Both the position numbers and the translations under genes were made by a program. Positions 5,018 to 23,321 of a stretch of DNA of 23,577 nt are shown one piece after another. The notes beneath the pieces are model-generated. The model was given only the letters and a program-made list of their open reading frames with translations. It did no database searches and was not told where the DNA came from. Source of the stretch: a virus; IMG/VR virus record IMGVR_UViG_3300028844_001286, positions 1 through 23,577 of that record; one strand, 5' to 3'. The first letter of the stretch is position 1. Every line of letters begins with the position of its first letter.

Positions 5018-5884
5018 ATGTCTAACGAAATCCTCGATTGGTCAGTTATTGACTACAAATCGACGGTCGAGCATCTGCTCCAGCAGCGAGGCTCCAAGCT
5101 CCGTATGTGCGTGATGGAAGACTCCTATCACGGCAAATCCGGTGCGGCCGTCAATCAGATTGGTGCTGTCACCGCCCAGGCACGGACGACCCGACACGCC
5201 GACACACCGCTTATTGAGACACCCCATGACAAACGCTGGGTTTTTCCCACCGATTACGAGTGGGCCGATCTCATCGACAGCCAGGACAAGCTCCGCATCA
5301 TCGCCGACCCAACCTCGCCATACGCCATCAACGGCGCTATGTCCCTTGGTCGGGCAATCGACGATCTGATCATCACCGCTGCGACGGCCTCGTCGCTCAC
5401 TGGTGAAGACGGAACGACCTCAACGGCCTTCCCTGCTGCTCAGACCGCCGCAACTACCTCTGGTGGCCTCACGGTCGCCAAGCTGCGAGAAGCCATGCAG
5501 TTGCTTATCGCCGCTGAAGTCGATGTGGACAACGAGCCCCTCTACTGTGCTATCGGCGCACAGCAGCACGACGATCTGCTCGGTGAAACTCAGGCTGTCA
5601 GCCTCGACTTCACCAACAAGCCGGTCCTCGTAGACGGTCGCATAAAATCCTTTATGGGCTTCAACTTCATCGACAGCCAGCGTCTGGCGCTGTCGGGCAC
5701 AGACCGCACAGCAATCTGCTGGGCCAAGTCCGGTCTGCACCTTGGGGTCTGGGGCGATATCAACGCCCAAATCTCAGAACGCGCCGACAAATCTTATTCA
5801 ACTCAGGTCTACGTCAAAGGCACTTTCGGCGCGACGCGAGTTGAAGAGAAAAAGGTTGTCGCCATTACCTGTTCGGAGGCTTAA
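5018..5884 (+). CDS. Major capsid protein
   Basis: The 288-aa product is the shell subunit, inferred to be HK97-fold. Features seen in podovirus capsid proteins of this size are a short N-terminal arm, a RW.FPTDYEWADLIDSQDKLRIIADPTSPYAINGAMSLGRAIDD spine-helix region near residues 70-115, the LTVAKLREAMQLLIAAEVDVDNEPLYCAIGAQQHDDLL block near 150-190, and an FMGFNFIDSQRL segment near 210-225. The C-terminal VYVKGTFGATRVEEKKVVAI strand is also characteristic. It is the first gene after the only sizeable intergenic gap and has a strong AAGGAAGG ribosome-binding site, consistent with high expression. A following terminator (6358-6386) would keep this message abundant relative to downstream genes. 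Confidence 0.9.
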   Translation: MSNEILDWSVIDYKSTVEHLLQQRGSKLRMCVMEDSYHGKSGAAVNQIGAVTAQARTTRHADTPLIETPHDKRWVFPTDYEWADLIDSQDKLRIIADPTSPYAINGAMSLGRAIDDLIITAATASSLTGEDGTTSTAFPAAQTAATTSGGLTVAKLREAMQLLIAAEVDVDNEPLYCAIGAQQHDDLLGETQAVSLDFTNKPVLVDGRIKSFMGFNFIDSQRLALSGTDRTAICWAKSGLHLGVWGDINAQISERADKSYSTQVYVKGTFGATRVEEKKVVAITCSEA

Positions 5885-5886
5885 TC

Positions 5887-6351
5887 ATGGCAACTGTTTA
5901 CAGTGTCCAAAAGACCAAGTGGGACCAAAACAGTCCCACCACGAACATCAAGCCCAATGAGAACCACGGGCGAGTTCGTATGGCATACGCGCTGTATGAA
6001 CTCTCCGGGTCGGTTGTGGGCACGGTTGTGGAGATGTTCAATCTCCCCAACGGCGCTCGCATCTTGTCGGGCGAACTCACCAACGACGCGCTGGCGTCGT
6101 CCACCACAATTTCGGTGGGTCACACAGCGTATACCGACAGCTCAGGCACTGCTGTTGTGCTCGATGTTGACGAGTTCCTGGCCGCAACTGATACCTCTGG
6201 TATCGCGACCACTGATGTTGCCGCCACTTCCGCGCTCGGTAAGAACACGGTTGTGAACGCTGATCAGACCGGCATCCCGATTACGTGTGTTGTCGCTGGC
6301 GCTACCGCCACCGGCACCATCGAGTTGGTGATGTATTACGTGGTTGACTAA
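5887..6351 (+). CDS. Small head structural (decoration-like) protein
   Basis: This 154-aa protein starts two bases after the capsid stop with GGAGG upstream (5874-5878). It is beta-rich with an N-terminal arm (MATVYSVQKTKWDQNSPTTNIKPNENHGRVR) that resembles an extended capsid-gripping peptide. The core reads GTVVEMFNLPNGARILSGELTNDALASSTTISVGHT. Proteins of this size and sequence style follow the capsid gene in many podoviruses and are usually called structural or decoration proteins. The specific role is inferred from position. Shared transcript with the capsid gene and a downstream terminator suggest expression comparable to capsid. Confidence 0.65.
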   Translation: MATVYSVQKTKWDQNSPTTNIKPNENHGRVRMAYALYELSGSVVGTVVEMFNLPNGARILSGELTNDALASSTTISVGHTAYTDSSGTAVVLDVDEFLAATDTSGIATTDVAATSALGKNTVVNADQTGIPITCVVAGATATGTIELVMYYVVD

Positions 6352-6357
6352 AGTTCA

Positions 6358-6386
6358 GGGGGCGGCGCAAGTCGCCCCCCGTCTTT
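6358..6386 (+). terminator. Rho-independent-type terminator after capsid genes
   Basis: A 9-bp stem pairs 6358-6366 (GGGGGCGGC) with 6371-6379 (GTCGCCCCC), including one G-U pair, and is capped by a GCAA tetraloop of the stable GNRA class. The following tract CGTCTTT is only modestly T-rich, so partial termination (attenuation) is more likely than full. It lies 6 bases after the stop of the small head protein and 18 bases before the ribosome-binding site of the next gene, separating abundant capsid proteins from the tail module. Confidence 0.75.
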
Positions 6387-6404
6387 CCAGAATAGGAGGA
6401 CCAC

Positions 6405-6974
6405 ATGCCGACGCATGAACTGGCCTATAAAAGTATCGAAGAACTGACGGAAGACAGCAGCGCGCCAGCAGCCGGCGATTGGCTGGTCCGTTGGGACGAC
6501 AGCGCCGCTGTCGTAAAGAAGGTTGACGCCACCGATATGGTTGCGGCGCTTGGCGTCACTGCCACCGTGGCTGAACTCAACTTGGCCGCAGATAGCTCCG
6601 CCAATGTTGAGATTGTCACAGCCACCAACATCATCACCGCCGCAGAGAGCGGCAAGACGTTCTTCCTCAACAACGCTACAGGCTTCGTCAGCACCCTCCC
6701 TGCCATCGCGGCCGGGTTGCGTTTCAAGTTTGTTCTGACGACTGTTCTGTCATCCGGCAATCACACGGTCGTGACCAGCGACGCCTCGAACATCATCGAG
6801 GGTAATCTCATGGTCGCGTCAACTGTTGTGCCGGCGGTTAACGAAGACAGCATCAACTTCCTTGTCACCGACGGTGATGTTGGGGATTGGTGTGAAGTTA
6901 TCTGCGACGGCACGAGTTGGTTTCTCAGCGGTTCTGCCACCACTGCTTCTGGCATGTCCGTAACCGCCACTTAA
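6405..6974 (+). CDS. Structural protein, beta-rich
   Basis: This is a 189-aa protein with an excellent ribosome-binding site (AGGAGG at 6394-6399, 5 bases from the ATG). The N-terminal part (ELAYKSIEELTEDSSAPAAGDWLVRWDDSAAVVKKVDATDMVAALG) is the kind of leader-like segment seen in phage fibre and appendage proteins. Residues from about 65 onwards form a beta domain with GKTFFLNNATGFVSTLPAIAAGLRFKF and a terminal DGTSWFLSGSATTASG strand. This resembles small head-fibre or appendage proteins in phage capsid modules; I cannot assign it further. It is the first gene after the terminator. Confidence 0.6.
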   Translation: MPTHELAYKSIEELTEDSSAPAAGDWLVRWDDSAAVVKKVDATDMVAALGVTATVAELNLAADSSANVEIVTATNIITAAESGKTFFLNNATGFVSTLPAIAAGLRFKFVLTTVLSSGNHTVVTSDASNIIEGNLMVASTVVPAVNEDSINFLVTDGDVGDWCEVICDGTSWFLSGSATTASGMSVTAT

Positions 6975-6992
6975 CCCAAGAGCGGGGTCAAC

Positions 6993-7568
6993 ATGACCGA
7001 CTCAGTCAGTATCTGTAACCTCGCTCTACAGCGTGTGGGCGCCAAGACCATCTCCGCGCTCACCGACGACACAACCGCTGGGCGGGCCTGCAATCGTGTT
7101 TACGCGCAGGCCCGCGACAGCGAGTTGAGGGCTCACCCCTGGAGCTTCGCCCGCGGGCGAGTGCAGATCGCCGCCGACAGTGTTGACCCGGTGTTCGGGT
7201 ATGCAAAGCGGTATCTCCTGCCTTCAGATTGGTTGCGTATCCTCCCCACAAACGGTGTGGACTCTACGCCCGTTCAGGACGACTTTCAGATCGAAGGCCG
7301 GTATCTCCTGACGGATATGGCGTCGCCGATCAATCTGGTGTATATTAAGCGCGTGACCGACGAAGAGACTTTTGACTCTTTGTTCATCGAACTGCTCATC
7401 GCGCGCATCGCAGCCGACGTGTGTGAGAAGGTCACGCAGTCTAATACCAAGAAGGCTGTGGCACGGGAGCACTACATGGATATGAAGAAAGAAGCCCGCC
7501 GGGTCAACGCTTTCGAGCGTCCCCCGCAGCAGCCGCCAGAGGACGTGTGGCTGACGGCGCGTCGATAG
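6993..7568 (+). CDS. Tail tubular protein A-like (gp11-like)
   Basis: The 191-aa product fits the T7 gp11 family that forms the ring between portal and nozzle. It starts with the family-typical SVSICNLALQRVGAKTISALTDD, then residues 30-75 carry the RACNRVYAQARDSELRAHPWSFARGR motif. Next comes a YAKRYLLPSDWLRIL stretch (about residues 70-85) and a helical C-terminal region. Length is close to the roughly 200 aa of the family. It is followed directly, with no spacer, by the gp12-like gene, the standard order in podoviruses. The start ATG is preceded by AAGAGCGGGG, a weak ribosome-binding site. Confidence 0.87.
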   Translation: MTDSVSICNLALQRVGAKTISALTDDTTAGRACNRVYAQARDSELRAHPWSFARGRVQIAADSVDPVFGYAKRYLLPSDWLRILPTNGVDSTPVQDDFQIEGRYLLTDMASPINLVYIKRVTDEETFDSLFIELLIARIAADVCEKVTQSNTKKAVAREHYMDMKKEARRVNAFERPPQQPPEDVWLTARR

Positions 7569-10091
7569 ATGCCTAAAGCCAGCACCATTCAGACCAGCTT
7601 CAACGGTGGCGAACTGTCGCCGTTGCTGCATGGGCGCCCTGACCTTGATCGCTACAAGACCGGGCTGCAAAGCTGCCTGAACTTCATCCCGTTGATCCAG
7701 GGGCCGGCGGAGCGCCGCCCCGGCACACAGCACATCGTCGAGGTCAAGACCAGCAGCCTGTCTACTCGGATTATAAGGTTCGAGTTTTCGACCACTCAGG
7801 CGTATATTATCGAGTTTGGCAACCAGTATTGCCGATTTATCAAGGATACGGCCCAGATCGTCAGTGGCACACCCATAGAGCTTGTCACCACATATCTGAC
7901 CGCAGACCTGTTCGATCTTAAATACGCGCAGAGCGCGGATACGCTCTACATCACCCACCCCTCATACCCGCCGCGCAAGATCACACGCACGTCCGACACC
8001 GCGTGGACGATCACGGACATCACGTTTCAGGACGGACCGTTTCTCAACACCAACACCACGGCCACGACGTTGGGCCTGTCCGGCACAACCGGGTCGGTAA
8101 CAGTCACTGCTTCTGCCATAACTGGCATCAATTCGGACACCGGTTTCCAGACAACTGACGTTGGCCGACAGATACGCTGGGAAGACGCGGCAGGTAACTG
8201 GACCTATTTAACCATCACGGCGCGCGCCAGCACCACCAGTGTGACGGCTGACATCGACGGACCCGATGCATCGGCCACAACTGCGACGGTTGTGTGGCGC
8301 CTGGGTGTGTGGTCTGAGACTACCGGCTACCCCGCCGCAGTGACGTTCCACCAGAACAGGCTGGTATTTGCCGGGCCGACCGATAACCCGCAGCGTATTG
8401 ATATGAGCCGCACGGGTGACTTTGAGAATTTCGCGCCCACTGAGGCGGATGGCACGGTGGTTGACGATAACGGGGTGACTGACACTCTGTCGGCCGACAC
8501 GGTCAACGTGATCCGATGGTTGGCTGACGACGAAAAAGGGCTTCTGTCTGGCACGGTCGGCGGCGAGTGGGTGACGCGCTCGTCCACAGCCGGCGACGTT
8601 GTGACACCGTCCAACGTGCAGAGTAAGCGGTCGTCGGCGTTTGGCAGCGGTAATCTACAGCCCACGCGCGCGGGACGCGCTCTGCTGTTTGTCCAGCGCG
8701 CGCTGCGTAAAGTGCGCGAGATGTCCTACGTCTTTCAGGACGACGGCTTCGTGTCGCCCGACCTGACGCTGATATCAGAGCACGTCACACAAACCGGCAT
8801 TATTGATATGGCCTACCAGCCAGAGCCGCAGAGCTTGCTGTGGATGTGCCTCACAGACGGCACCCTGCTGTCGCTGACGTATGACCGGGAACAGAAGGTC
8901 GCCGGGTGGAGCCGACACGTCGTGGGGGGCACCAGCGACGCCGCTGGCACCCAAGCTAAGGTCGAGAGTGTGGCGGTCATACCTAACACGGCGGGCACGG
9001 CTGACGAGCTGTATGTGGTGGTCAAACGCTACATCAACGGCGCGACCGTCAGGTTCATTGAGTATCTGAAGCCCCACTGGTCCGACGCCAACGACAGCGA
9101 GGATGCCTTCTTTGTGGACAGCGGCCTGTCGCTGGACTCCGCGATTACCGTCACTGGTGTCACCGCTGCTGACCCCGGTGTTGTTACCGCGGCGTCGCAC
9201 AGTATCTCAGATGGCTCCGAGGTCCGGTTCACTGATGTGAAAGGTATGACACAACTCAACAAGGTGTCATACAAGATGGGGCAAAGTGCTACAAACACAT
9301 TCGAGCTTTTCGCGAACCAGCCTATCGCGCCGGTTATCACCGCGGCGACGAAGGCGAACCCGGTTGTTATCACATCGGTAGCACATGGCCTGTCTGACAG
9401 CGACGAGATTATGATCGTTGACGCGGGCGGCATGACCGAGATCAACGGGCTGGGCTTCACCGTCGCTAACAAGACCGCTGATACGTTCGAGCTTTCAGGG
9501 ATCAACGGCACCGGCTATACGACATACACATCAGGTGGCCGCATACACCACGCGGTTGACACATCGGACACCGACAACTTCAGCGCCTACGTGTCTGACG
9601 GTAAGGTCCGAGTGCGGTCCTCCACTATCTCAGGGCTGACCCATCTTGAGGGCGAGACGGTTCAGGTGTTGGCCGAGGGGGCGACGCACCCCGATGTTGT
9701 TGTGGCATCAGGTGCGGTTACACTTAACCGCAAGGCGTCGAAGGCCCACGTCGGACTGACCTACACGTCGAATTTCGAGATGCTTCGCATTGAGGCCGGC
9801 AGCGCCGACGGGACCGCGCAGGGTAAATTCCAGCGTGTCCACCATCTTGTCGTTCGATTTTGGCAAACGCTTGGCGGTGGCATTGGGCCAGATGTAAGCA
9901 ATCTCGATAATATCGTGCTTCGCGAGGGCGGCGATCCGATGGATACCGCAGTCGCCCTGTTCTCTGGCGACTACGAGACAGATTGGGACAGCGAATACGG
10001 CAATGACAACCACATATTTATTCAGCAGACACAACCGCTTCCAATGACTATCCTAGCTGTGATGCCACAACTTCATACGCAGGATAGCTGA
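7569..10091 (+). CDS. Tail tubular protein B-like (gp12-like nozzle / stabilisation protein)
   Basis: The 840-aa product is the podovirus nozzle protein that extends the tail tube. The N terminus SFNGGELSPLLHGRPDLDRYKTGLQSCLNF, followed by the GPAERRPGTQHIVEV block at residues 38-55, is a clear family signature. The central part has the HQNRLVFAGPTDNPQRIDMSRTGDFENF motif near residues 258-285 and an RKVREMSYVFQDDGF segment near 375. Residues about 529-586 and 588-657 hold two beta repeats of similar sequence (PGVVTAASHSISDG..V.. and NPVVITSVAHGLSDSDEI..), resembling FCCH-type insert domains known from phage tail proteins. Its start abuts the previous stop; its stop overlaps the next ATG (TGATG). 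Confidence 0.9.
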   Translation: MPKASTIQTSFNGGELSPLLHGRPDLDRYKTGLQSCLNFIPLIQGPAERRPGTQHIVEVKTSSLSTRIIRFEFSTTQAYIIEFGNQYCRFIKDTAQIVSGTPIELVTTYLTADLFDLKYAQSADTLYITHPSYPPRKITRTSDTAWTITDITFQDGPFLNTNTTATTLGLSGTTGSVTVTASAITGINSDTGFQTTDVGRQIRWEDAAGNWTYLTITARASTTSVTADIDGPDASATTATVVWRLGVWSETTGYPAAVTFHQNRLVFAGPTDNPQRIDMSRTGDFENFAPTEADGTVVDDNGVTDTLSADTVNVIRWLADDEKGLLSGTVGGEWVTRSSTAGDVVTPSNVQSKRSSAFGSGNLQPTRAGRALLFVQRALRKVREMSYVFQDDGFVSPDLTLISEHVTQTGIIDMAYQPEPQSLLWMCLTDGTLLSLTYDREQKVAGWSRHVVGGTSDAAGTQAKVESVAVIPNTAGTADELYVVVKRYINGATVRFIEYLKPHWSDANDSEDAFFVDSGLSLDSAITVTGVTAADPGVVTAASHSISDGSEVRFTDVKGMTQLNKVSYKMGQSATNTFELFANQPIAPVITAATKANPVVITSVAHGLSDSDEIMIVDAGGMTEINGLGFTVANKTADTFELSGINGTGYTTYTSGGRIHHAVDTSDTDNFSAYVSDGKVRVRSSTISGLTHLEGETVQVLAEGATHPDVVVASGAVTLNRKASKAHVGLTYTSNFEMLRIEAGSADGTAQGKFQRVHHLVVRFWQTLGGGIGPDVSNLDNIVLREGGDPMDTAVALFSGDYETDWDSEYGNDNHIFIQQTQPLPMTILAVMPQLHTQDS

Positions 10092-11023: not shown

Positions 11024-13348
11024 ATGGCAACCTTTAGCACATATGACGCACCAGCCAACGTAACCGGGGCTGTCGGTGGGCGCCGTGCGTCTGCGGCTGA
11101 TTTCGGGCCTGACGTGTCAAGCGCGGGCGCAGGGTTGCAACAACTGGCCGAGACGCTGCGCGTTCGTGAGGATAAACGCAGCATCACCCAGGCCCGTGTT
11201 GGCCTCAACGACTTCGAGGTCGCCTTCACGGCTGATGCTCAACGTATAGCGAGTGAAGCTCCGGAGGGGGCGCCAAATCTTCCTGCCGACACCTTGGCTG
11301 AGTTTGACTCCCGCATGGCTGATTTTAACGCGGGCCTTAACAACATACAGAAGGATAGCGTGGGGCCGCGGCAAGGAGTCTTGCGGGCCGCTTTTGCTAA
11401 AAGTGCTTTAGAAACACAGGCAGCTTCTGTAGTGCGGTTGGACATAAGAAACGTTGGCAAGTTACAAATATTTCACGGCCAGCGGGTATACGGCGGGCTG
11501 GACCCCCGTGAAGCCATGGCTGAGTTTGCGGCAGATTTGAGCGACACCACGTCATCTGCTGAATTGACAGCAGCAACCTTAGAAGCTGCTGAACCAGTCT
11601 TTATAGACCAATATCTCGCCGGTATGACTGTGCGGCCCGAAGTTGGGATCGAAGCACTCGACAGTGGCATGTTAGATTGGGTGCCAGCCGACCGGCGAGA
11701 CACCTTCAGAAAGGCTTTGGAGGATCGACAAGACCACCTTGAAGCCCGCGCAGCGCGCACAGGCACCCCCGCAATACTCGCGCGTGTGGAGGGGGATGTG
11801 ACGACGTGGTTGGGCGAAACACTGCCAGGCTTAAAGGTGGATGCTGCCGCAGATGGTGAGGGTTATCCCGAGCAGGTTGCTCAGTCACTTGACGAAATGT
11901 TTGCGAAGACCACCGAGGGTATGTCCGAGATGGAACTGGCGCGCGTTCAGCCGACGCTGACACAGCGCCGACGTGAATTGATGGCCATAGCTGAAGCCCA
12001 CGCGACCACGTTAGCAACCGCCGCCACAGCGCGTGATGTAGATAGGGTCGAGCGCGCGTTGTTAGACCGCGCAGCCACCGGGCAAACGCCGCCAGAGGAG
12101 GTTAAGGCAGAATACGCAATGATGTTGGCCGCTGATAAAAAACTATCCGACGGCGAGCGAGCGAAGAAATCTGCTGCTTTTGAAGGCAAGTTGCGATCAG
12201 CCCTTATCTCGGGAATTGAGAGCCGACCAGACGCACGACAGTCGCTCATTGATTTGAATAACGGCAAGTATAACTCGGCGCTAACACAGTCTGAACGAGA
12301 TGAATTACGTCCGAAACTCGTGGCTAAAGTGGTGAAGCAGGACAAGGTCCAAAAGACCGAAGACCTGGCCAGCTGGATTATCAATTCCGGGGACGCGGCT
12401 GACCGAGTGTTTGCTGGGCGTATAGACGCCCGCGAGTTGCAGAGTATGTTCGAAGACCCTGCCGACCCGGTCCTCACTTCTTTGCTTAAAACACTGAGAC
12501 AACAGACGACACCACTCAGGACACCGGAGCAGATCGCCGTGCGCGAAGGCGAGATTTTTAATATGTATTCCGAGCTTGGGGTATCCAGAGACAACGGCCA
12601 ATATAAAACGGAAGAAGGGCTTCGGAAGTTGGCTGACTTTTATGAGTTCGCAACCCAGTCGGTCGCGGATGGTTTCGCCTCCCGCGCAGGAACGCAGAGT
12701 TACCTGAACCGCGTCCGCGCGCTGATGCCCAGCGCGCTGGAGGCGCAGGGCGGCACCGGGTGGTTGGGTGAGCACACTTTTGAGGACACACCTTTTGATC
12801 ACCTAGTATCTCAGGTCAGAAGCCAGGTCACAGTTGCGGGGTCACAAACAGCGGTTGTTGTCCGGGTGAACACCCAACTGCGCGAGGCGGAAGCAGCGGG
12901 CACCCCCATTGATCCCCAAACCATAGGCGACCTCGTTGACCAGGCGTGGCGGGCCGAGTTGGCCGATCACGGATACATAATACCGCCCGACAAACCCATA
13001 CCAACCGGCTCGATCCGCGCGACTGATGGCCGGTTGATCCACACGAATGCGGTTGGTGGTCAAGTTAAGCCACAACAGCCAAAGACAATAGACGAAGTGT
13101 CGGTAGGCACGGTGGTATACGTAGATGGCAACCCTTTTGTGAAAACTTTGGATAATAATGGTGAAGTTAAATTTGTCTATCTGACACCAGAACAGGCCGC
13201 CAAGCGCCGCGGGGAGAACCCTAATGAGCCGCCCCTCGTGCCAACAGACGCCCCCGTGGAGAACACTAATGAGCCGCCCCGCAAACCCGTGGACGTAGAG
13301 CCCAAAACCGAAGACCCGTGGCTGATTGATCCAGAGAGTGGTGCTTAA
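11024..13348 (+). CDS. Internal virion protein, gp15-like
   Basis: The 774-aa product is strongly helical and in the position of T7 gp15, an ejected internal core protein that forms the periplasmic part of the DNA conduit. T7 gp15 is about 747 aa, close to this length. The N terminus (FSTYDAPANVTGAVGGRRASAADFGPDVSSAGAGLQQLAE) is typical of such proteins: an extended arm followed by a long helix. Residues 60-600 are nearly all helix, without membrane segments. The last 110 residues are proline-rich, with a small beta domain (SVGTVVYVDGNPFVKTLDNNGEVKFVYLTPEQA) and a duplicated ENPNEPP/ENTNEPP motif. The short spacer to the next gene is 2 bases. Confidence 0.78.
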   Translation: MATFSTYDAPANVTGAVGGRRASAADFGPDVSSAGAGLQQLAETLRVREDKRSITQARVGLNDFEVAFTADAQRIASEAPEGAPNLPADTLAEFDSRMADFNAGLNNIQKDSVGPRQGVLRAAFAKSALETQAASVVRLDIRNVGKLQIFHGQRVYGGLDPREAMAEFAADLSDTTSSAELTAATLEAAEPVFIDQYLAGMTVRPEVGIEALDSGMLDWVPADRRDTFRKALEDRQDHLEARAARTGTPAILARVEGDVTTWLGETLPGLKVDAAADGEGYPEQVAQSLDEMFAKTTEGMSEMELARVQPTLTQRRRELMAIAEAHATTLATAATARDVDRVERALLDRAATGQTPPEEVKAEYAMMLAADKKLSDGERAKKSAAFEGKLRSALISGIESRPDARQSLIDLNNGKYNSALTQSERDELRPKLVAKVVKQDKVQKTEDLASWIINSGDAADRVFAGRIDARELQSMFEDPADPVLTSLLKTLRQQTTPLRTPEQIAVREGEIFNMYSELGVSRDNGQYKTEEGLRKLADFYEFATQSVADGFASRAGTQSYLNRVRALMPSALEAQGGTGWLGEHTFEDTPFDHLVSQVRSQVTVAGSQTAVVVRVNTQLREAEAAGTPIDPQTIGDLVDQAWRAELADHGYIIPPDKPIPTGSIRATDGRLIHTNAVGGQVKPQQPKTIDEVSVGTVVYVDGNPFVKTLDNNGEVKFVYLTPEQAAKRRGENPNEPPLVPTDAPVENTNEPPRKPVDVEPKTEDPWLIDPESGA
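13214..13280 (+). repeat. Direct repeat in 3' end of gp15-like gene
   Basis: Two copies of a 22-base element at 13214-13235 and 13259-13280 differ at one position and are 45 bases apart (15 codons), keeping frame. They encode the motif EN(P/T)NEPP(L/R). The repeat lies in the disordered proline-rich tail and looks like a recent in-frame duplication. Confidence 0.75.
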
Positions 13349-13350
13349 TC

Positions 13351-16300
13351 ATGGCTGAACTCGCACAGACCCTGAACGAAGAAGAAGAAGAAGAAGCACA
13401 GGCCGCCGCCGTCGCGGACATCCCACAGTCGCCTGAAGACGACACACCTACGTGGGATGGAACCGGCGAGTTTACCTACGACGAGGAACCTGTCGAGGAA
13501 CCCGCGGCTACACCTACGTGGGACGGCGGCGGCGAATTTCAACTCGAAAGCACCGAGCCCCACACAGTTGCTATGCCCGATGGACAAGTGGTCGAACTGC
13601 CGGAGGGCGGGCTGGGGCGACTTATCAACATCTTCGACAGGAGCTATGATAAGGGGTCGGCCCAGTATCAGGCGTCCGTAGTTGGCTACCAAATTCTTCA
13701 ACGTGGCGCGGCAAATGCAGACCCAAAACTTGAGGCCAGATACGCCCAACTTATGACGGAGTCGTCGGGTGTCATCCCCGCGGAGGGTTGGTGGGAGGAG
13801 AGTATCGGCGCCGCCGCCTCACAACTCCCTCAATTGTCCGCTATGGCCGGCAACATGGCCAAGCGCGGACTTGAAGGCGGGCTCGTTGGTTTGCTGACCG
13901 GCTTGATGCCGGTCGACCCAAGGAGAGTTGGAGTTAAAGGTGTGCCCACAATGGCCCGCCGGGCATTAGCAGGCGTATCGGCGGGCTCGTTGGTGGGGGG
14001 CGCGGAAAGCAACTTCTATCAAGCATCCGCAAACGCCTACATGGAGATACGTGAGATAAAAGACACCAACGGCGTTAAGGTAAACGACAAAGCAGCCCAG
14101 CTCATGGCCTACGCTGCCGGCGCCGCCAGCGCAGGGTTGGAGTTCATCCCGCTTGGCGTATTGTTCAAAATGGTCCCCGGCAGTAAGCAAATGTTTGCAA
14201 ACGCTGGCCTCCGTATGGCTGGCAGCCTGATGCTCCCGAAGACAAAAAAGGCCGCCGTTAATTTTCTCATAAATTTAAGTGCTTTGAGTGCTGCCGAGGT
14301 GAGCACCGAGGTAGCGCAGGAGGCAGTCGTCATTGGCGCGGGCGAGGTGGCAAAAATGCTGAGTCCTGAAGACAACTTTGAAAGTGTCGCCGCGAAATAC
14401 CTGTGGGATCGTTTGGCCCAAACGGCTGAAGAGGCGGCTAAGGTTACGACTATTCTCGGGCCGTTGGCTTCGGCTCCAAGATTGGCTACCGACTTTGTGA
14501 CGCCGATAGAGCTTGATGTTGTTCCTGACGATCCACAGGCTACCGCAGTGCGCCACGTCTCCATAGTCGAGGTTGACACGTTGGCCCAGAAGATCGCCGA
14601 CGCACCTATATCAGAGGACTTAGAGACCTACGATGTAGGGCCGCTGTCACCGCAGGAGCGCGAGGCTATGGAGTTTGCGGGGTTGGAAGTTACCCCCGAA
14701 GGCCAGATGCCCGCCAAAGTCGCGGAGTTGTTTGCGGGCGAGAGAGCGCGCCGCATGGCTCTACTAACTGAACGGGCTTCAGCGTCGCAGACACAGACCG
14801 AAAAGGATGAGGCATCCGCCCTGCGTAAAGTTGCCCGCGGGGCGATCCGTAAACTGGATAACACTATTAAAAATCTGGATGTTCAGGTTGACGACACACT
14901 GACGATTATCGCGGAGCGCGAGGCGCAAGGTAAGCCCGTAAAATCACAGAAGAACAAGATCAACCGACTGCTCAATGCGCGGGAGAAGCTCGACGAAGAG
15001 CGCGCCGGGCTGCTGACTGACGAAACCCCGGTGGGTGATCGGTTGAGCCAGGCTCGTCAGGCGTTGGACAACGACATCGAGTTGAAGGGCACCGAGCTAT
15101 TCAAAGCGGAACAACGTTTGCAGGTCGCGAAAGAGCGCGCGTTCAACAAAGGGTTGAAGGACGGTTCGAGATTGGCGCGCACAGATACAAAGGCGGCGCA
15201 AGAGGCCGTCATCGAGATGCTGGAGAGTGAAGCCACCGACCCTGATGTGAAGTTGCCGTCGAAGAAGCCGCGCACCAAGAAAGAAAACATTAGCAAGAAG
15301 GCCAAGCGCAAAGAGGGCCGACTGTTTAAGTTGAGCGACACAGCCAAGGCCAAGTTTATCAAGCGGCTCAAGAACGTGCAGGGCGCCGAGCAGTTCAACA
15401 AGGTTATGGACGACCTTCAGTCCGCTATTAACGTCGCTGTAACAAAGGAGCGGCGCAAGGTTGCCTTGAAGAAGCTGGACAAAGAATTGAGGTCGTCCGG
15501 CGTCAAAAAACGCAAGGGTAGGTTTGGCCCCGAGGCCCAGGCCGACCTGGACGGTATGGCTAAAAACTACCTGAACATGACCGCGGAGAAGGCACGGGAG
15601 GCGCTGGCTAAACTACCGCCGCAAAAAACCTCGCATGAACGATTGATAAAAGGGATGTTGACCTTACGGGCGGACCCTGAGTCTTTCAGCGCCCAGCAGA
15701 TCGAGGACATATTACTGCGCGTCATCCAGACAAAAGCCGAGGGTAGACAGAGCATGAAGGACGGCCGCAGCAGGGCGGATAAGCAGGTTGACGACACAAA
15801 AGCCGAGCTTTTGGACCAGATGGGCGAGGGGAGGGACGAGTCGGACAAAGGCCGTAATATTCGAGAGTTCTTCGCTGCGGTTGAAGTAGTCTCGTTTTTG
15901 GGGTTGAGCGGGTCGTGGCGCGTCAAGATGCGGCGCATACTTAGAACGTCTGACGGCTCTCGCGCACAGGCGCTTATAGACAAGCTGGGATTGTTCGCAG
16001 AAACGCGAGTGTTCAACGCCGGTAAGGTCGACATGACGCAAAAGTTCAGCGATATGGCAACCGCTGCGCTGGGGCTTGGATCGGAGCGCCAGTTGCGGAA
16101 GAAGCTCGCCAAAGACGAGGTAGAAAAATTAAATCTAGGTAAGTTCAGACATGAAAATGGTGAGTTCAAAACACTGGACGTGAGAACCCGCGCGCAAGCC
16201 CGAGCGCGGGTGATGCAGATGCGCGATCCAGACTTGGAGAAGAGCTACCGCGATGCAAAGGGTAACGGCTACACGGATGATATAATAGCCGCCATAGAGG

Positions 16301-17838
16301 GCGCGCTGGACGAGTCGGATTACCAGTTGATCGAGGTGCAGGTGGAGTTTTACGAAGCCTACTACGAGCGCATTAACCAAGTATATGAACGGATGAATGG
16401 CTTCTCGCTGCCAAAACTCGTGCAATATAGCCCGATACGGCGCGAGAACGTGGATTTTGTCCAGAACGAGTTTTTTGAGTCTATACATTACCAAGGTTCT
16501 GTCGCACCGGGCAGCCTCAAGTCGCGTGAACCTAGTGTCCGGCGCACAGTTTCCACGGGCGACTTTACCACTCTTCAATCTCACATCATGGAGATGGAAT
16601 ACTATATTGCGTATGCCGAGAAGGTCCAGTTTATCTCCAGTGTTATGCGGTCGCCCGAAGTGCAGAACCGCATCGACGACGTGTTCGGCAAGATGATACG
16701 GACTACAATAAATCAGGACTTGGACTTCTTCCAAAGGAAAGGAGGCCGAGACTCGTGGGCTGTGGAGAAGCTGAGTGCAACGCTGTTGAGAAACTTTACG
16801 TTCGCGCAGCTTGGGTTCAAACCGCAGATTGGATTGAAACAGTTGGCGTCGATGTCGATATACGCGCAGGACGTTAGCACGGTGGATTTCGTCCTCGGGA
16901 TGGCGGAGTTTGCCAAAAACCCCCGCGCCGCGCTGAAAGTCTTGGCCGAGAGTGAGCAGTTCGCTACTCGGGGTATGAACATAGACAAGGACTTCGAGGC
17001 TCTTCTGAGCGACAAATCAATGCTGAACCTAGTCGGTAAGAACCCTGGTCTTGCCAAGGTTATCATGGTTCCCATTCGGTATGGCGATAAGGGGGCTATC
17101 GCTCTCGGTGGTTACGCGCACTACCACGCCATGATGAAGAAGAACGGCGGCAACCACAAGGCTGCGCTCGACTCGTTCGACCGCATGACCGTTGATACTC
17201 AGCAGTCAAACGATATTGACCAACTGTCTGTGCTCCAACGGTCCAGCCCGTTGCTGCGTGTCCTGTCGCAGTTTATGTCTTCAGCCAACGCCTTGGCCCG
17301 CTCTGAGTATAGCGCCGTGCTCGATATGAGATCGAAGCGTATAAACAAAAGAGAATTTGCCAAGCGGCTGTTCATCCTGCATTTCCTTATACCCAACACC
17401 ATACAGTATATAGCTAACGGGTTTACTTGGGACACCGAAGACCAATTGAGAGCCTCGCTAGTGGGGGCGCTCAACGGCGTGTTTGTCTTCGGTGACTTGG
17501 TTGATGCGGCGGCGCGGTTCGCTACGGGTGGAGTAGAAGATGTCAACGATATCGGGGTGCGCCACCAGTTTGAGTTCTTCGAGGATATTGTAAAACTTAT
17601 GGAAGAGTTGACCGACGACGACATCAGCTTCGAGGATTGGGAGGACGCCATGCGCGTATTAGACCCTGCGGGTAACGTGGTTGGCGCGTTAACGGGCATC
17701 CCGTTAACCACCGTAATCAACGAGTTCCGGGGCTTAACGGATATCGGGCGCACCAGACGTGAAGGTGACGCGCGAGCCGCCGGTATGCGTATACTGGGCT
17801 ACGCGGACTTCGCCGTTAAAAAGGTGCAGGAAAGATAA
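13351..17838 (+). CDS. Large internal virion (ejection) protein, gp16-like
   Basis: At 1495 aa this is the largest gene and takes the place of T7 gp16 (about 1318 aa), which spans the inner membrane during DNA ejection. Residues 1-65 are acidic (E10-E15 run) with a duplicated PTWDGxGEF motif at 33 and 55. Residues 165-360 hold several glycine/alanine-rich hydrophobic helices (GLEGGLVGLLTGLMP, ALAGVSAGSLVGGAES, LMAYAAGAASAGLEFIPLGVLFKMV) and an AEVSTEVAQEAVVIGAGEV segment, plausible membrane-inserting elements. Residues 455-860 are charged coiled coil with a Lys/Arg-rich patch near 640-670. The C-terminal third (FKPQIGLKQLASMSIYAQD, SSPLLRVLSQFMSSANALA) resembles C termini of large phage polyvalent or ejection proteins. 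Unlike T7 gp16, I see no N-terminal lytic transglycosylase motif. Confidence 0.8.
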   Translation: MAELAQTLNEEEEEEAQAAAVADIPQSPEDDTPTWDGTGEFTYDEEPVEEPAATPTWDGGGEFQLESTEPHTVAMPDGQVVELPEGGLGRLINIFDRSYDKGSAQYQASVVGYQILQRGAANADPKLEARYAQLMTESSGVIPAEGWWEESIGAAASQLPQLSAMAGNMAKRGLEGGLVGLLTGLMPVDPRRVGVKGVPTMARRALAGVSAGSLVGGAESNFYQASANAYMEIREIKDTNGVKVNDKAAQLMAYAAGAASAGLEFIPLGVLFKMVPGSKQMFANAGLRMAGSLMLPKTKKAAVNFLINLSALSAAEVSTEVAQEAVVIGAGEVAKMLSPEDNFESVAAKYLWDRLAQTAEEAAKVTTILGPLASAPRLATDFVTPIELDVVPDDPQATAVRHVSIVEVDTLAQKIADAPISEDLETYDVGPLSPQEREAMEFAGLEVTPEGQMPAKVAELFAGERARRMALLTERASASQTQTEKDEASALRKVARGAIRKLDNTIKNLDVQVDDTLTIIAEREAQGKPVKSQKNKINRLLNAREKLDEERAGLLTDETPVGDRLSQARQALDNDIELKGTELFKAEQRLQVAKERAFNKGLKDGSRLARTDTKAAQEAVIEMLESEATDPDVKLPSKKPRTKKENISKKAKRKEGRLFKLSDTAKAKFIKRLKNVQGAEQFNKVMDDLQSAINVAVTKERRKVALKKLDKELRSSGVKKRKGRFGPEAQADLDGMAKNYLNMTAEKAREALAKLPPQKTSHERLIKGMLTLRADPESFSAQQIEDILLRVIQTKAEGRQSMKDGRSRADKQVDDTKAELLDQMGEGRDESDKGRNIREFFAAVEVVSFLGLSGSWRVKMRRILRTSDGSRAQALIDKLGLFAETRVFNAGKVDMTQKFSDMATAALGLGSERQLRKKLAKDEVEKLNLGKFRHENGEFKTLDVRTRAQARARVMQMRDPDLEKSYRDAKGNGYTDDIIAAIEGALDESDYQLIEVQVEFYEAYYERINQVYERMNGFSLPKLVQYSPIRRENVDFVQNEFFESIHYQGSVAPGSLKSREPSVRRTVSTGDFTTLQSHIMEMEYYIAYAEKVQFISSVMRSPEVQNRIDDVFGKMIRTTINQDLDFFQRKGGRDSWAVEKLSATLLRNFTFAQLGFKPQIGLKQLASMSIYAQDVSTVDFVLGMAEFAKNPRAALKVLAESEQFATRGMNIDKDFEALLSDKSMLNLVGKNPGLAKVIMVPIRYGDKGAIALGGYAHYHAMMKKNGGNHKAALDSFDRMTVDTQQSNDIDQLSVLQRSSPLLRVLSQFMSSANALARSEYSAVLDMRSKRINKREFAKRLFILHFLIPNTIQYIANGFTWDTEDQLRASLVGALNGVFVFGDLVDAAARFATGGVEDVNDIGVRHQFEFFEDIVKLMEELTDDDISFEDWEDAMRVLDPAGNVVGALTGIPLTTVINEFRGLTDIGRTRREGDARAAGMRILGYADFAVKKVQER
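13444..13523 (+). repeat. Duplicated PTWDG coding motif
   Basis: ACACCTACGTGGGA occurs identically at 13444-13457 and 13510-13523, 66 bases apart (22 codons), encoding the repeated TPTWDGxGEF motif in the acidic N terminus of the gp16-like protein. Confidence 0.75.
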
Positions 17839-20592: not shown

Positions 20593-20963
20593 TGCGCTGG
20601 CTGGCGGTAGCTGTAGCACTGGCCGGTTTACTGGCCGCTCGGCCCACGTTGGGCGCAGACTGCTACACACCAGCAGAGATCGACGGGGCGATGTCAGTGG
20701 TCCACCCGGCGTTTAGCGACCGTGTGGTCTACGACGGCGTTCAGGGCGCTACACTTATCGCCGTGTGGAATGACGGTATGAACCGCCCCAAGGTAGACGC
20801 CGACACATTTATTGCTTACACGATGGGGCAATCTACGTTAGTGTGGGCCTTCAAAGACAACTGCCGAGTGTGGGCCGTGGATAACCAACCTTTGTTTATG
20901 CCGACACAGTTTCTCGGTGCGCTGATAACCGCCGCAGAGCGGCGCATGGATACTCAGTCGTGA
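20592..20963 (+). CDS. Secreted protein of unknown function
   Basis: The 123-aa product has a clear Sec signal peptide: MRW, a hydrophobic core LAVAVALAGLLAA, and a probable cleavage after LGA at residue 22. The mature part is about 100 aa with two cysteines (CYTPAEIDG and DNCRVWAVD) that may form a disulfide, and motifs FIAYTMGQSTLVWAFKD and MPTQFLGALITAAERRM. It has no lipobox and no second membrane segment, so it is neither an obvious o-spanin nor i-spanin. A periplasmic or cell-surface role is inferred. It lies between the fibre accessory gene and the lysis genes; superinfection exclusion or lysis assistance are only possibilities. The stop overlaps the next GTG start (GTGA). Confidence 0.65.
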   Translation: MRWLAVAVALAGLLAARPTLGADCYTPAEIDGAMSVVHPAFSDRVVYDGVQGATLIAVWNDGMNRPKVDADTFIAYTMGQSTLVWAFKDNCRVWAVDNQPLFMPTQFLGALITAAERRMDTQS

Positions 20964-21178
20964 GCGACGAGCTACTGACCAAGTTGATCGCGTCATCCGC
21001 CCGTATCGAAGAGCGGGTGGACAACGTGCGGGAGGATGTGGGCTACATGAAAGGTAAGATCGACAAGCTCCAGCACGACGCCATCGTTGGCAAGACCAAG
21101 GTGGCCTTTATGAGTGGCGGTCTGGCAGTTGTTGTCAGCGCCGTCGGGGCATGGGTAGCCTCCGCGATGCGGGTTTGA
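20960..21178 (+). CDS. One-TM coiled-coil membrane protein, holin/XhlA-like
   Basis: The 72-aa product has an N-terminal charged coiled coil (residues 3-42, IEERVDNVREDVGYMKGKIDKLQHD) and one C-terminal transmembrane helix (residues 48-69, VAFMSGGLAVVVSAVGAWVASA). This layout is that of XhlA-type haemolysin/holin-associated proteins in phage lysis cassettes. It starts at GTG 20960, overlapping the previous stop, and ends four bases before the lysozyme start, which supports a lysis role. A separate three-TM holin lies further downstream, so this may be an accessory, a pinholin or an antiholin. Confidence 0.65.
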   Translation: MSDELLTKLIASSARIEERVDNVREDVGYMKGKIDKLQHDAIVGKTKVAFMSGGLAVVVSAVGAWVASAMRV

Positions 21179-21182
21179 CGGC

Positions 21183-21590
21183 TTGAGAATAGCCGACGTT
21201 ACAAAATCACTTATTGCTGAAGAGGGGCTACGGCTCAAGCCCTACCGTGACACGGTGGGCAAGCTCACCATAGGCGTCGGCCGCAACCTCGACGACGTGG
21301 GCATCACAGAGGATGAAGCTCTCGCTCTGTTGGAAAACGATATTGACCACGTCGCCCGGTCACTGGACGCCCTACTGTCCTGGTGGTCACGGCTGTCACA
21401 AGACCGACAGAACGTGCTCGTGGAGATGGGCTTCCAGCTTGGCGTCGCCGGGCTGCTGAATTTCAAAAACTTTTTACTGGCTCTGGAGATGGGAGATTAC
21501 GAAGGCGCGAAAGACGAAATGCTGGACAGCAAGTGGGCACGTCAGACCCCTGACCGTGCGGCGCGTCTGGCTGAACGCATGAGAGGATGA
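21183..21590 (+). CDS. Endolysin: T4-type lysozyme (glycoside hydrolase 24)
   Basis: The 135-aa enzyme cleaves the N-acetylmuramic acid-N-acetylglucosamine bond of peptidoglycan. The T4 lysozyme catalytic triad is recognisable: E14 in EEGLRLKPYRDTVG, D23 in the same motif, and T29 in LTIGVGRN (E11, D20 and T26 in T4). The family's RQNVLVEMGFQLG.....F.NFL helix block (about residues 78-103) and the final RQTPDRAARLAERMR segment follow. At 135 aa it is slightly shorter than T4 lysozyme (164). The start is TTG 21183, with no ATG upstream of the catalytic motif and no strong ribosome-binding site, so translation may depend on coupling to the previous gene. No signal or SAR helix is seen, so release needs a holin. 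Confidence 0.9.
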   Translation: MRIADVTKSLIAEEGLRLKPYRDTVGKLTIGVGRNLDDVGITEDEALALLENDIDHVARSLDALLSWWSRLSQDRQNVLVEMGFQLGVAGLLNFKNFLLALEMGDYEGAKDEMLDSKWARQTPDRAARLAERMRG

Positions 21591-21593
21591 CAC

Positions 21594-22781
21594 ATGGACG
21601 TAGTCGGACTACGACCCTACGCCACCCCCCGACAACTCGAAATACTTGAGGCAATAGCGAGCACCGGCAGCAAGAGACAGGCGGCGCTGGCGCTTAAGAT
21701 ATCCAGACCTAACGTGCAGGAGGCTGTGCGCGCGGTCGAAACAAAGGCGGCGAAGCAAGGCTACGCCCCTGAGCACGACCTTACCCACACAATACCCGAT
21801 GGACAGAAGCTCCGCGGCGTCTCGACCTACTACAACGCCGACGGCAAGGTCCAAGGCCAGTGGGTCAAGTCGGCCGAAGATAAAGAGCGGATGCTCGAAC
21901 TCTACCGCGAGGCGATAGCGGGCCTCGTGTCGAACGTGGAAGCGATGAAGCGCATCGCCAAGCCCAGCAAGTGTGAAGACCTGCTGGTTGGCTACCCCAT
22001 AAGCGACCACCACTTCGGTATGCTGTCGTGGCACGAGGAGACAGACCACGACTACGATCTCGACATCGCCAGCCAGATGCTCGCCGGCGCGATGGATCAC
22101 CTGGTTGACCGGGCACCCAAGTCAAAGAAAGCCCTGATCGGTGTGCTAGGCGACTACTTCCATTACGACAGTTTCGAGAGCGTCACGCCGCGCGGTCGTA
22201 ACCAGTTGGACAGCGACACGCGGTTCCCGCGCATGATCCGCGCCGGGCTACAGGGGTTGATCCACCAGATCGCCCGCGCGCTGGAGAACCATCAGGAGGT
22301 CGAGGTCATAATCGAACTCGGCAACCATGACCCCGCGTCAGCTATCTGGCTGATGCTCTCGCTGCAACAGATATTCAGCTACAACCCACGTGTGACGATC
22401 AACAGCTCACCAAAGAATTTCCACTACTATCGCCACGGCAAGACGCTCATAGGTGTGCATCATGGGCACGGCCCCAAGATGGCTGACCTGCCGCTGATCA
22501 TGGCGACCGACCGCCCCGCGGATTGGGGTTTGACAGAGAACCGCTACTGGTGGAGCGGCCACGTCCACCACGACCAGATGAAAGACATACAGGGGGTGAA
22601 AGTTGAGAGTTTTCGAATCTTGGCACCAGGCGATGCTTGGGCGAATAGCAAGGGGTATCGCTCGAAGCAGAGCATGGTATCAATTACATACGACCCGGAT
22701 TACGGTGAAGTCGCTAGAAATTCTGTTTCGGGTGCGATGTTTTTTAGTCAGGGCCGAAGCAAACGAAAGCGTGGAGGCTAA
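21594..22781 (+). CDS. HTH-metallophosphoesterase (calcineurin-like)
   Basis: The 395-aa protein has an N-terminal helix-turn-helix (residues 10-55: TPRQLEILEAIASTGSKRQAALALKISRPNVQEAVR), a GVSTYYNADGKVQGQWVKS linker (about 75-93), and a C-terminal calcineurin-like phosphoesterase. Motifs are all present: D138-x-H140 (ISDHHFG), G186-D187, G243-N244-H245-D246, H289-H290-G-H292, and G322-H323-V-H325. The metal-dependent active site is therefore intact. Targets could be phosphodiester bonds in DNA, RNA or nucleotides. HTH-MPE proteins occur in podoviruses but their substrate is not known to me. It has a good GAGAGGAT site and lies between the lysozyme and holin genes, an odd place for a DNA enzyme. 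Confidence 0.85.
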   Translation: MDVVGLRPYATPRQLEILEAIASTGSKRQAALALKISRPNVQEAVRAVETKAAKQGYAPEHDLTHTIPDGQKLRGVSTYYNADGKVQGQWVKSAEDKERMLELYREAIAGLVSNVEAMKRIAKPSKCEDLLVGYPISDHHFGMLSWHEETDHDYDLDIASQMLAGAMDHLVDRAPKSKKALIGVLGDYFHYDSFESVTPRGRNQLDSDTRFPRMIRAGLQGLIHQIARALENHQEVEVIIELGNHDPASAIWLMLSLQQIFSYNPRVTINSSPKNFHYYRHGKTLIGVHHGHGPKMADLPLIMATDRPADWGLTENRYWWSGHVHHDQMKDIQGVKVESFRILAPGDAWANSKGYRSKQSMVSITYDPDYGEVARNSVSGAMFFSQGRSKRKRGG

Positions 22782-22788
22782 CACCACT

Positions 22789-22905
22789 GTGGTCCGCTGG
22801 CTGAAACATGGCGACCCTCTACCGCGCGGCTGGCGACCTACACCGGGACAGCACCGGCACCACTTGAGATACAGCGTTCTGATCGAGCGCATACAGGAGG
22901 ACTAA
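22789..22905 (+). CDS. Tiny conserved-type phage protein
   Basis: This frame encodes about 38 aa from GTG 22789, with GGAGG at 22773-22777 upstream. The sequence WLKHGDPLPRGWRP...RHHLRYSVLIER resembles small proteins (motif PLPxGW...HH..YS.LI) that I recall next to lysis genes in podoviruses; their function is unknown. An earlier GTG at 22771 would add six residues; the frame also runs back to 22603 but that part is a shadow of the phosphoesterase gene. It is basic and Trp/His-rich, with no membrane helix. It ends two bases before the holin ATG, and its 3' end carries the holin's AGGAGG ribosome-binding site. Confidence 0.6.
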   Translation: MVRWLKHGDPLPRGWRPTPGQHRHHLRYSVLIERIQED

Positions 22906-22907
22906 TT

Positions 22908-23321
22908 ATGAGCATACTCGGAACACTACTGGGCGGCGGGCTGACATCACCGATTGAGGCCGTCGGTAAGGTCGTGGACAGTCTGTTCACGTCTGACGAG
23001 GAGCGGCTGGACAAACAAGCCATGCTCGCGCGGCTCGCGCAGAACCCGGCCAAGTGGCAGACGCACATCAACTCTATTGAGGCCAGCCACCGCTCGGTGT
23101 TCGTCGCGGGCTGGCGCCCGATGGTCGGTTGGGTGTGCGCGGTGTCACTGCTCTACAATTTTGTCCTGCTCAACCTGCTAGGCTGGGCGTTCTCCATCTG
23201 GGCACCGCTCATGGTTGCGCCGCCGGCGATACAGATGGAACATCTCATCACGATCCTGTTGGGTATGCTCGGCCTGGGTGGTCTTCGGACGGCTGAGAAG
23301 TTACGGGGTGCTGCGAAGTAG
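22908..23321 (+). CDS. Holin of the 3TM superfamily
   Basis: The 137-aa product matches the three-TM holin family linked to gene-transfer-agent and phage release in alphaproteobacteria. Residues 64-75 have the diagnostic FVAGWRPMVGWV motif, followed by hydrophobic segments at about 73-92 (GWVCAVSLLYNFVLLNLLG) and 93-104, and a C-terminal ITILLGMLGLGGLRTAEKLRG block at 114-133. The N terminus (ILGTLLGGG.TSPIEAVGKVVDSL) is amphipathic. Holins make inner-membrane holes that let the endolysin reach the cell wall. A perfect AGGAGG site lies 8 bases upstream of ATG. It is the last rightward gene in the window; the next genes lie on the other strand. Confidence 0.88.
   Translation: MSILGTLLGGGLTSPIEAVGKVVDSLFTSDEERLDKQAMLARLAQNPAKWQTHINSIEASHRSVFVAGWRPMVGWVCAVSLLYNFVLLNLLGWAFSIWAPLMVAPPAIQMEHLITILLGMLGLGGLRTAEKLRGAAK

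Follow-up and report, generated by a model that had tools for sequence, protein, structure and literature searches.

A phrog_704 helix-turn-helix metallophosphoesterase within a phage lysis cluster as a candidate late DNase

Introduction

What would a protein with a helix-turn-helix (HTH) and a metallophosphoesterase (MPE) active site do between the endolysin and the holin of a phage? This question is raised by a gene in IMG/VR record IMGVR_UViG_3300028844_001286, of which we analysed positions 1 to 23,577 (23,577 nucleotides, hereafter the window). We propose, with moderate confidence, that the gene is an accessory late gene, and that its product is a two-metal (calcineurin/Mre11-type) DNA phosphodiesterase acting as a DNase on host DNA. 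Such a function would identify, for many phages, the enzyme that degrades and recycles host DNA, and would account for a conserved gene of unexplained role next to the lysis cassette of T1-type phages.

Results

The gene lies in the following arrangement.

20960-21178, plus strand: 72-aa protein with a coiled coil and a C-terminal transmembrane segment (sequence reading; weak phrog_1103 match, 0.0037)
21183-21590, plus strand: phage-lysozyme endolysin with the listed TTG start (PF00959, 3.6e-14; phrog_7, 4.7e-23)
21594-22781, plus strand: HTH-MPE of the phrog_704 family, 395 aa (ORF; phrog_704, E = 1.3e-108; AF2 pLDDT 91)
21627-21755, plus strand: N-terminal HTH, residues 12-54 (Pfam HTH_1, 2.7e-5; three AF2 helices)
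21756-21878, plus strand: family-specific linker domain, residues 55-95, with a beta hairpin and the invariant W90 (alignment conservation, AF2 model)
21975-22733, plus strand: MPE domain, residues 128-380, five motifs
22771-22905, plus strand: possible 44-aa ORF, GTG start, between MPE and holin (sequence reading)
22908-23321, plus strand: holin, GTA_holin_3TM (PF11351, 3.8e-13; phrog_3427, 2.5e-32)

The first-pass annotation had described an HTH protein with an intact five-motif active site between endolysin and holin, and we could confirm the reading frame, the motifs and the neighbours. The gene starts with ATG at 21594 and stops at 22779-22781. All five MPE motifs are intact (D138xH140, GD187xxH190, GNH245D, H290 and GH323xH325). 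Residues 13-51 match Pfam HTH_1 (LysR type, E = 2.7e-5) with a score of 24.4 bits, slightly under the curated cut-off of 26.6, and the AF2 model (mean pLDDT 91.1) places helices at 12-24, 27-34 and 38-54. Pfam Metallophos matches are weak for the single protein (E 0.014-0.43); the phrog_704 profile covers residues 14-381. This profile match, together with the HTH-linker-MPE architecture and its catalytic residues, places the protein in phrog_704, while the five metal/catalytic motifs and the MPE fold place it in the calcineurin-like MPE superfamily. Matches to the Pfam models GCP_N_terminal and CAP12-TIR were weak and under cut-off, and were treated as chance.

Endolysin and MPE genes are separated by 3 bp, and a search for promoter or terminator matches between them returned none. 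The two genes are therefore likely co-transcribed, and this operon structure makes the late expression with the lysis genes assumed in the first-pass annotation likely as well. The possible 44-aa ORF overlaps the end of the MPE gene, and a search for a PHROG match to it gave none. Judged by its sequence, the 72-aa protein upstream of the endolysin is a possible accessory or second holin, or another lysis accessory.

The head and tail genes of the window resemble those of HTVC010P-type pelagiphages (capsid and tail PHROGs), and its tail tubular protein B is about 46% identical to theirs.

5018-10091, plus strand: major capsid and tail tubular genes
11024-13348, plus strand: 774-aa ORF lying between the tail tubular and tail fibre genes, without a PHROG match
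13351-17838, plus strand: 1495-aa ORF in the same interval, likewise without a PHROG match

The 774-aa and 1495-aa ORFs probably encode internal virion or ejection proteins. No MPE family member is present in the complete HTVC010P genome, and 26.7 kb read from a second relative showed none either. A virion of this type can thus do without the gene, and a role in packaging becomes less likely. These comparisons suggest gain or exchange of the lysis region as one module.

To what family does the protein belong? By tblastn, relatives occur in 2,065 of 50,697 phage records (about 4%), including nearly all T1-like phages, and in 1,844 of these records the alignment spans 80% or more of the query. 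All of these relatives are less than 60% identical to the window MPE. Eight plasmid records also contain a match. Conservation was measured in 107 relatives, the representatives of clusters at 75% identity. D138, H140, D187 and H325 are invariant in this set, and 105 of the 107 keep all eight catalytic residues. Since the catalytic residues are kept across these relatives, the active site is under selection and is not a chance match. W90, T198, D206, D208, R210, R266 and D347 are family-specific residues that are invariant or nearly so. Two sequences, L185 and L260, show altered catalytic residues in the alignment (H323N; several motifs lost), and may be decayed copies or alignment or sequence errors. 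The annotation of phrog_704 is "DNA repair exonuclease", and our literature search found no published assay of any member. The window MPE adds a divergent new member to this known and widespread but uncharacterised family.

The HTH region is found in nearly all family members, with a best Pfam model that varies from member to member (HTH_1, HTH_50, Fis-type, Sigma70_r4, MarR and others). Column entropy is 2.62 for the HTH and 2.76 for the putative recognition helix, the least conserved segment of the family, against 1.85 for both the MPE domain and the linker. The first 60 residues are basic. Members of the CP30A type, at about 317 aa, align only from residue 75 and have no HTH part. The variable type and low conservation point to a general DNA tether or to phage-specific targets rather than to one conserved site, and the first-pass suggestion of an HTH that directs the enzyme to a specific site finds no support as a conserved property. 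Among a spread of 30 records listed by a search with the N-terminal part only, proteins were annotated as phosphoesterase, exonuclease or DNA-binding, or had no annotation; none was a clear unrelated host protein, and we rejected the idea of a free-standing shuttle domain.

The structure-based search for the nearest phosphoesterases ranked a DNA exonuclease first. The best PDB fold matches are PolD DP1 (5.9e-7), GpdQ, Mre11, VPS29 and Rv0805, with TM-scores of 0.3-0.4 by query length. GpdQ, VPS29 and Rv0805 score like PolD DP1 and Mre11. The modelled fold is that of the MPE superfamily, and the first rank of a DNA exonuclease is not decisive for the substrate. Against PDB sequences, profile searches gave no significant match; the sole MPE proteins listed were SbcD/Mre11, at non-significant E values of 0.1-0.5.

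The first-pass annotation had also supposed a constant co-location with lysis genes. In 22 annotated phage records, a named lysis gene lies within 3 kb of the MPE gene in 10, possibly in 3 more and in 8 not at all, with 1 record unannotated. Across 264 loci grouped into 48 clusters at 60% identity, known lysis families occur within 3 kb in 25 clusters, a test that is biased because its seed families were drawn from loci near an MPE. At 3-8 kb the representatives show 2 lysis-family matches upstream and 0 downstream. A family-blind PHROG tally pointed the same way: it found endolysin phrog_7 eight times and holin phrog_3427 six times among 140 proteins up to 1.5 kb downstream, and phrog_7 four times among 141 proteins upstream, whereas at 4.5-7 kb no lysis family ranks among the 25 commonest. 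If at most one control match is assumed, Fisher tests give p = 0.04 for endolysin and 0.06 for holin, so that on single families this unbiased form of the test is only modestly significant. In Drexlerviridae, an exonuclease-holin-endolysin-spanin core module has been described in 508 of 522 phages (PMC13164509). We take its "DNA repair exonuclease" to be phrog_704 because our search retrieves Drexlerviridae members of that name. Elsewhere, lambdoid phages carry the MPE gene in the nin/Q-to-terminase interval, in Ackermannviridae it adjoins a primase, and in Guernseyvirinae (L019, L020) it sits with a small next gene on the opposite strand within the structural genes, like a moron. Lysis co-location is thus real and recurrent but not constant: it is absent in those members of Guernseyvirinae, Ackermannviridae and Fletchervirus that were read and in others, and its near-constant case, Drexlerviridae, was already published.

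Small neighbouring genes were also considered. A conserved small partner directly upstream, which annotated phages had led us to suspect, was rejected as a general feature, since in a family count a 71-aa family occupies that position in at most 4 clusters. A gene of 72-76 aa, which may be DUF3310-like, recurs near the MPE gene in seven clusters (L024, L025 and relatives).

Genes that handle deoxynucleoside monophosphates (dNMPs) form the more informative association, seen in several unrelated phages. In Klebsiella phi1_146005 (L132) and ACG-M12 (L135; polynucleotide kinase annotated, dNMP kinase recognised by HMM), both of these kinase genes come directly after the MPE gene. The same position holds dNMP kinase in a cyanophage (L133), dNMP phosphatase in a Ruegeria phage (L138), and nucleotidase with dNMP kinase in a Thermus phage (L139). 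With each 75% cluster counted once, 13 clusters have a dNMP kinase within 8 kb, and in 9 of them it is no more than 1.2 kb downstream; the binomial value of 4e-8 is optimistic, as the seed families came from loci near an MPE. In the PHROG tally, dNMP kinase phrog_139 appears four times within 1.5 kb downstream and does not rank among the 25 commonest families at 4.5-7 kb. Most MPE loci have no recognised kinase neighbour, and no dNMP kinase was recognised in the window, whose record is a fragment. In Drexlerviridae the same kinases occupy the slot after the exonuclease and have been read as nucleotide supply (PMC13164509). A dNMP kinase or nucleotidase just downstream is what would be expected if the MPE releases dNMPs. 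The link to kinases and nucleotidases, and the distribution and lysis proximity in unrelated phages beyond Drexlerviridae, are modest additions to what was published.

Discussion

How might this enzyme work? The first-pass annotation had listed nicking or degradation of DNA among several functions, and a DNA-acting nuclease is the best reading of the phrog_704 assignment, the predicted fold and the gene neighbourhoods: dNMP-handling neighbours and the PolD DP1/Mre11 fold matches favour a DNase that releases dNMPs. The analysis shows the predicted fold, the intact catalytic residues, the HTH, the operon position and the association with lysis and dNMP-handling genes; from these we infer DNA as the substrate, host DNA as the target, the time of action and what the HTH does. 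Together with the W90 linker, the HTH would bring the protein onto DNA, probably with little sequence specificity, and the MPE domain would cleave host DNA and free dNMPs. In several phages a neighbouring dNMP kinase could rephosphorylate these products, or a neighbouring nucleotidase remove them. In the window phage the protein is probably translated with the endolysin and would thus act late, degrading what remains of the host DNA before lysis or while it proceeds. Several observations count against a DNase: the five motifs are common to phosphomonoesterases and cyclic-nucleotide phosphodiesterases, the phage Gp48-type MPEs (phrog_221) and T5 A1 (phrog_1745) belong to different families with local similarity only, and a recognised kinase neighbour is missing at most loci. 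A broader version, which we regard as doubtful, would make the protein part of a widespread late module for host-genome demolition, in which an MPE nuclease bound to DNA, in many cases accompanied by a nucleotidase or by a dNMP or polynucleotide kinase, recurrently adjoins lysis genes in unrelated phages and coordinates chromosome breakdown with lysis.

The enzyme could instead process the phage's own DNA, by trimming or cutting either intermediates of replication or recombination or the concatemers to be packaged. At some loci TerL is found 0.5-4 kb downstream (19 downstream matches, 109 clusters), HNH and endonuclease VII families occur among the downstream neighbours, the recombination genes Erf and NinB are nearby in some phages, and the PolD/Mre11-like fold points the same way. 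We consider this role unlikely because HTVC010P, with its related tail tubular protein B, has no copy of the gene in its complete genome, because genome positions of the MPE gene are very different among phages, unlike those of a packaging component, and because the annotated neighbourhoods that were read showed no SbcC/Rad50 partner. Judged by HTVC010P, this phage type does not require the MPE for concatemer processing, a role raised in the first-pass annotation. A dedicated lysis factor working with endolysin or holin would fit the 25 of 48 clusters with lysis families within 3 kb, the very few matches at 3-8 kb and the MPE-holin-endolysin-spanin core of Drexlerviridae (PMC13164509). Many family members lie far from lysis genes, however, kinases stand between MPE and holin in Drexlerviridae, and a middle/late gene junction explains the position equally well, which makes such a factor highly improbable.

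An anti-defence phosphodiesterase that eliminates a nucleotide signal or blocks host defence in some other way seems quite unlikely. The superfamily does include cyclic-nucleotide phosphodiesterases, with Rv0805 among the fold matches, the opposite-strand accessory placement in Guernseyvirinae resembles that of a moron, and a mycobacteriophage MPE has been linked to counter-defence (PMC12287305). That MPE is reported to act via DNA damage (PMC12287305), the conserved HTH region and the dNMP-handling neighbours indicate DNA, and placement among late lysis genes would be poor timing for blocking defence. We think it very unlikely that the protein is a late transcriptional or protein-level regulator whose HTH binds a site and whose MPE domain is a phosphatase (compare lambda PP) or structural. 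The LysR-like HTH_1 match, the annotation of several family members as transcriptional regulators and the location of lambdoid members near Q/nin genes would suit this role; lambda's own phosphatase gene lies near Q/nin genes. The protein has no LysR effector domain, though, and the shorter CP30A-type members begin after the HTH. The catalytic site hardly changes across the family, in contrast to the type of HTH and its putative recognition helix, which argues for catalysis as the conserved function.

Comparison with Known Systems

Mre11/SbcD shares the MPE fold and motif set with the window MPE (fold match E about 1e-6). The TM-score is about 0.35-0.40, there is no significant sequence match, and the window protein carries an extra N-terminal HTH. 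Membership in Mre11/SbcD was rejected on the sequence-family profiles (E 0.1-0.5), and no SbcC/Rad50 partner was seen in the PHROG results for the window, itself a fragment, or in the annotated neighbourhoods. The proofreading exonuclease of archaeal PolD, DP1, is the top PDB fold match (6hmf_B, 5.9e-7), at a TM-score by query length of 0.38 and 14% identity; no polymerase partner was seen.

The mycobacteriophage MPE Gp48 offers a precedent, as an assayed DNase that degrades DNA in vitro and in vivo, activities abolished by motif mutations (PMC12287305). Its relative Bxb1 gp47 (phrog_221, 255 aa) has the five motifs and weak local similarity to the window MPE, but no HTH/linker module. The window MPE has no phrog_221 match and Bxb1 gp47 no phrog_704 match, so we rejected a Gp48-type assignment. 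T5 A1 is required for host DNA degradation (PMC8541194). It shares an NHD...WL stretch with the window MPE and has a dNMPase gene nearby, but belongs to a different PHROG; the profile match to phrog_1745 failed, and hhalign gave a probability of 6% over 20 columns.

The closest relatives are the phrog_704 members themselves (rtp61 and its Drexlerviridae relatives, Guernseyvirinae, Dhillonvirus and others), with which the window MPE shares the HTH-linker-MPE architecture and the catalytic residues. Those from isolated phages are at most about 44% identical to it, and the HTH sub-type differs among members. In Drexlerviridae and Dhillonvirus members the gene is lysis-adjacent, as in the window, but stands beside the lysis cluster, whereas the window MPE lies inside it.
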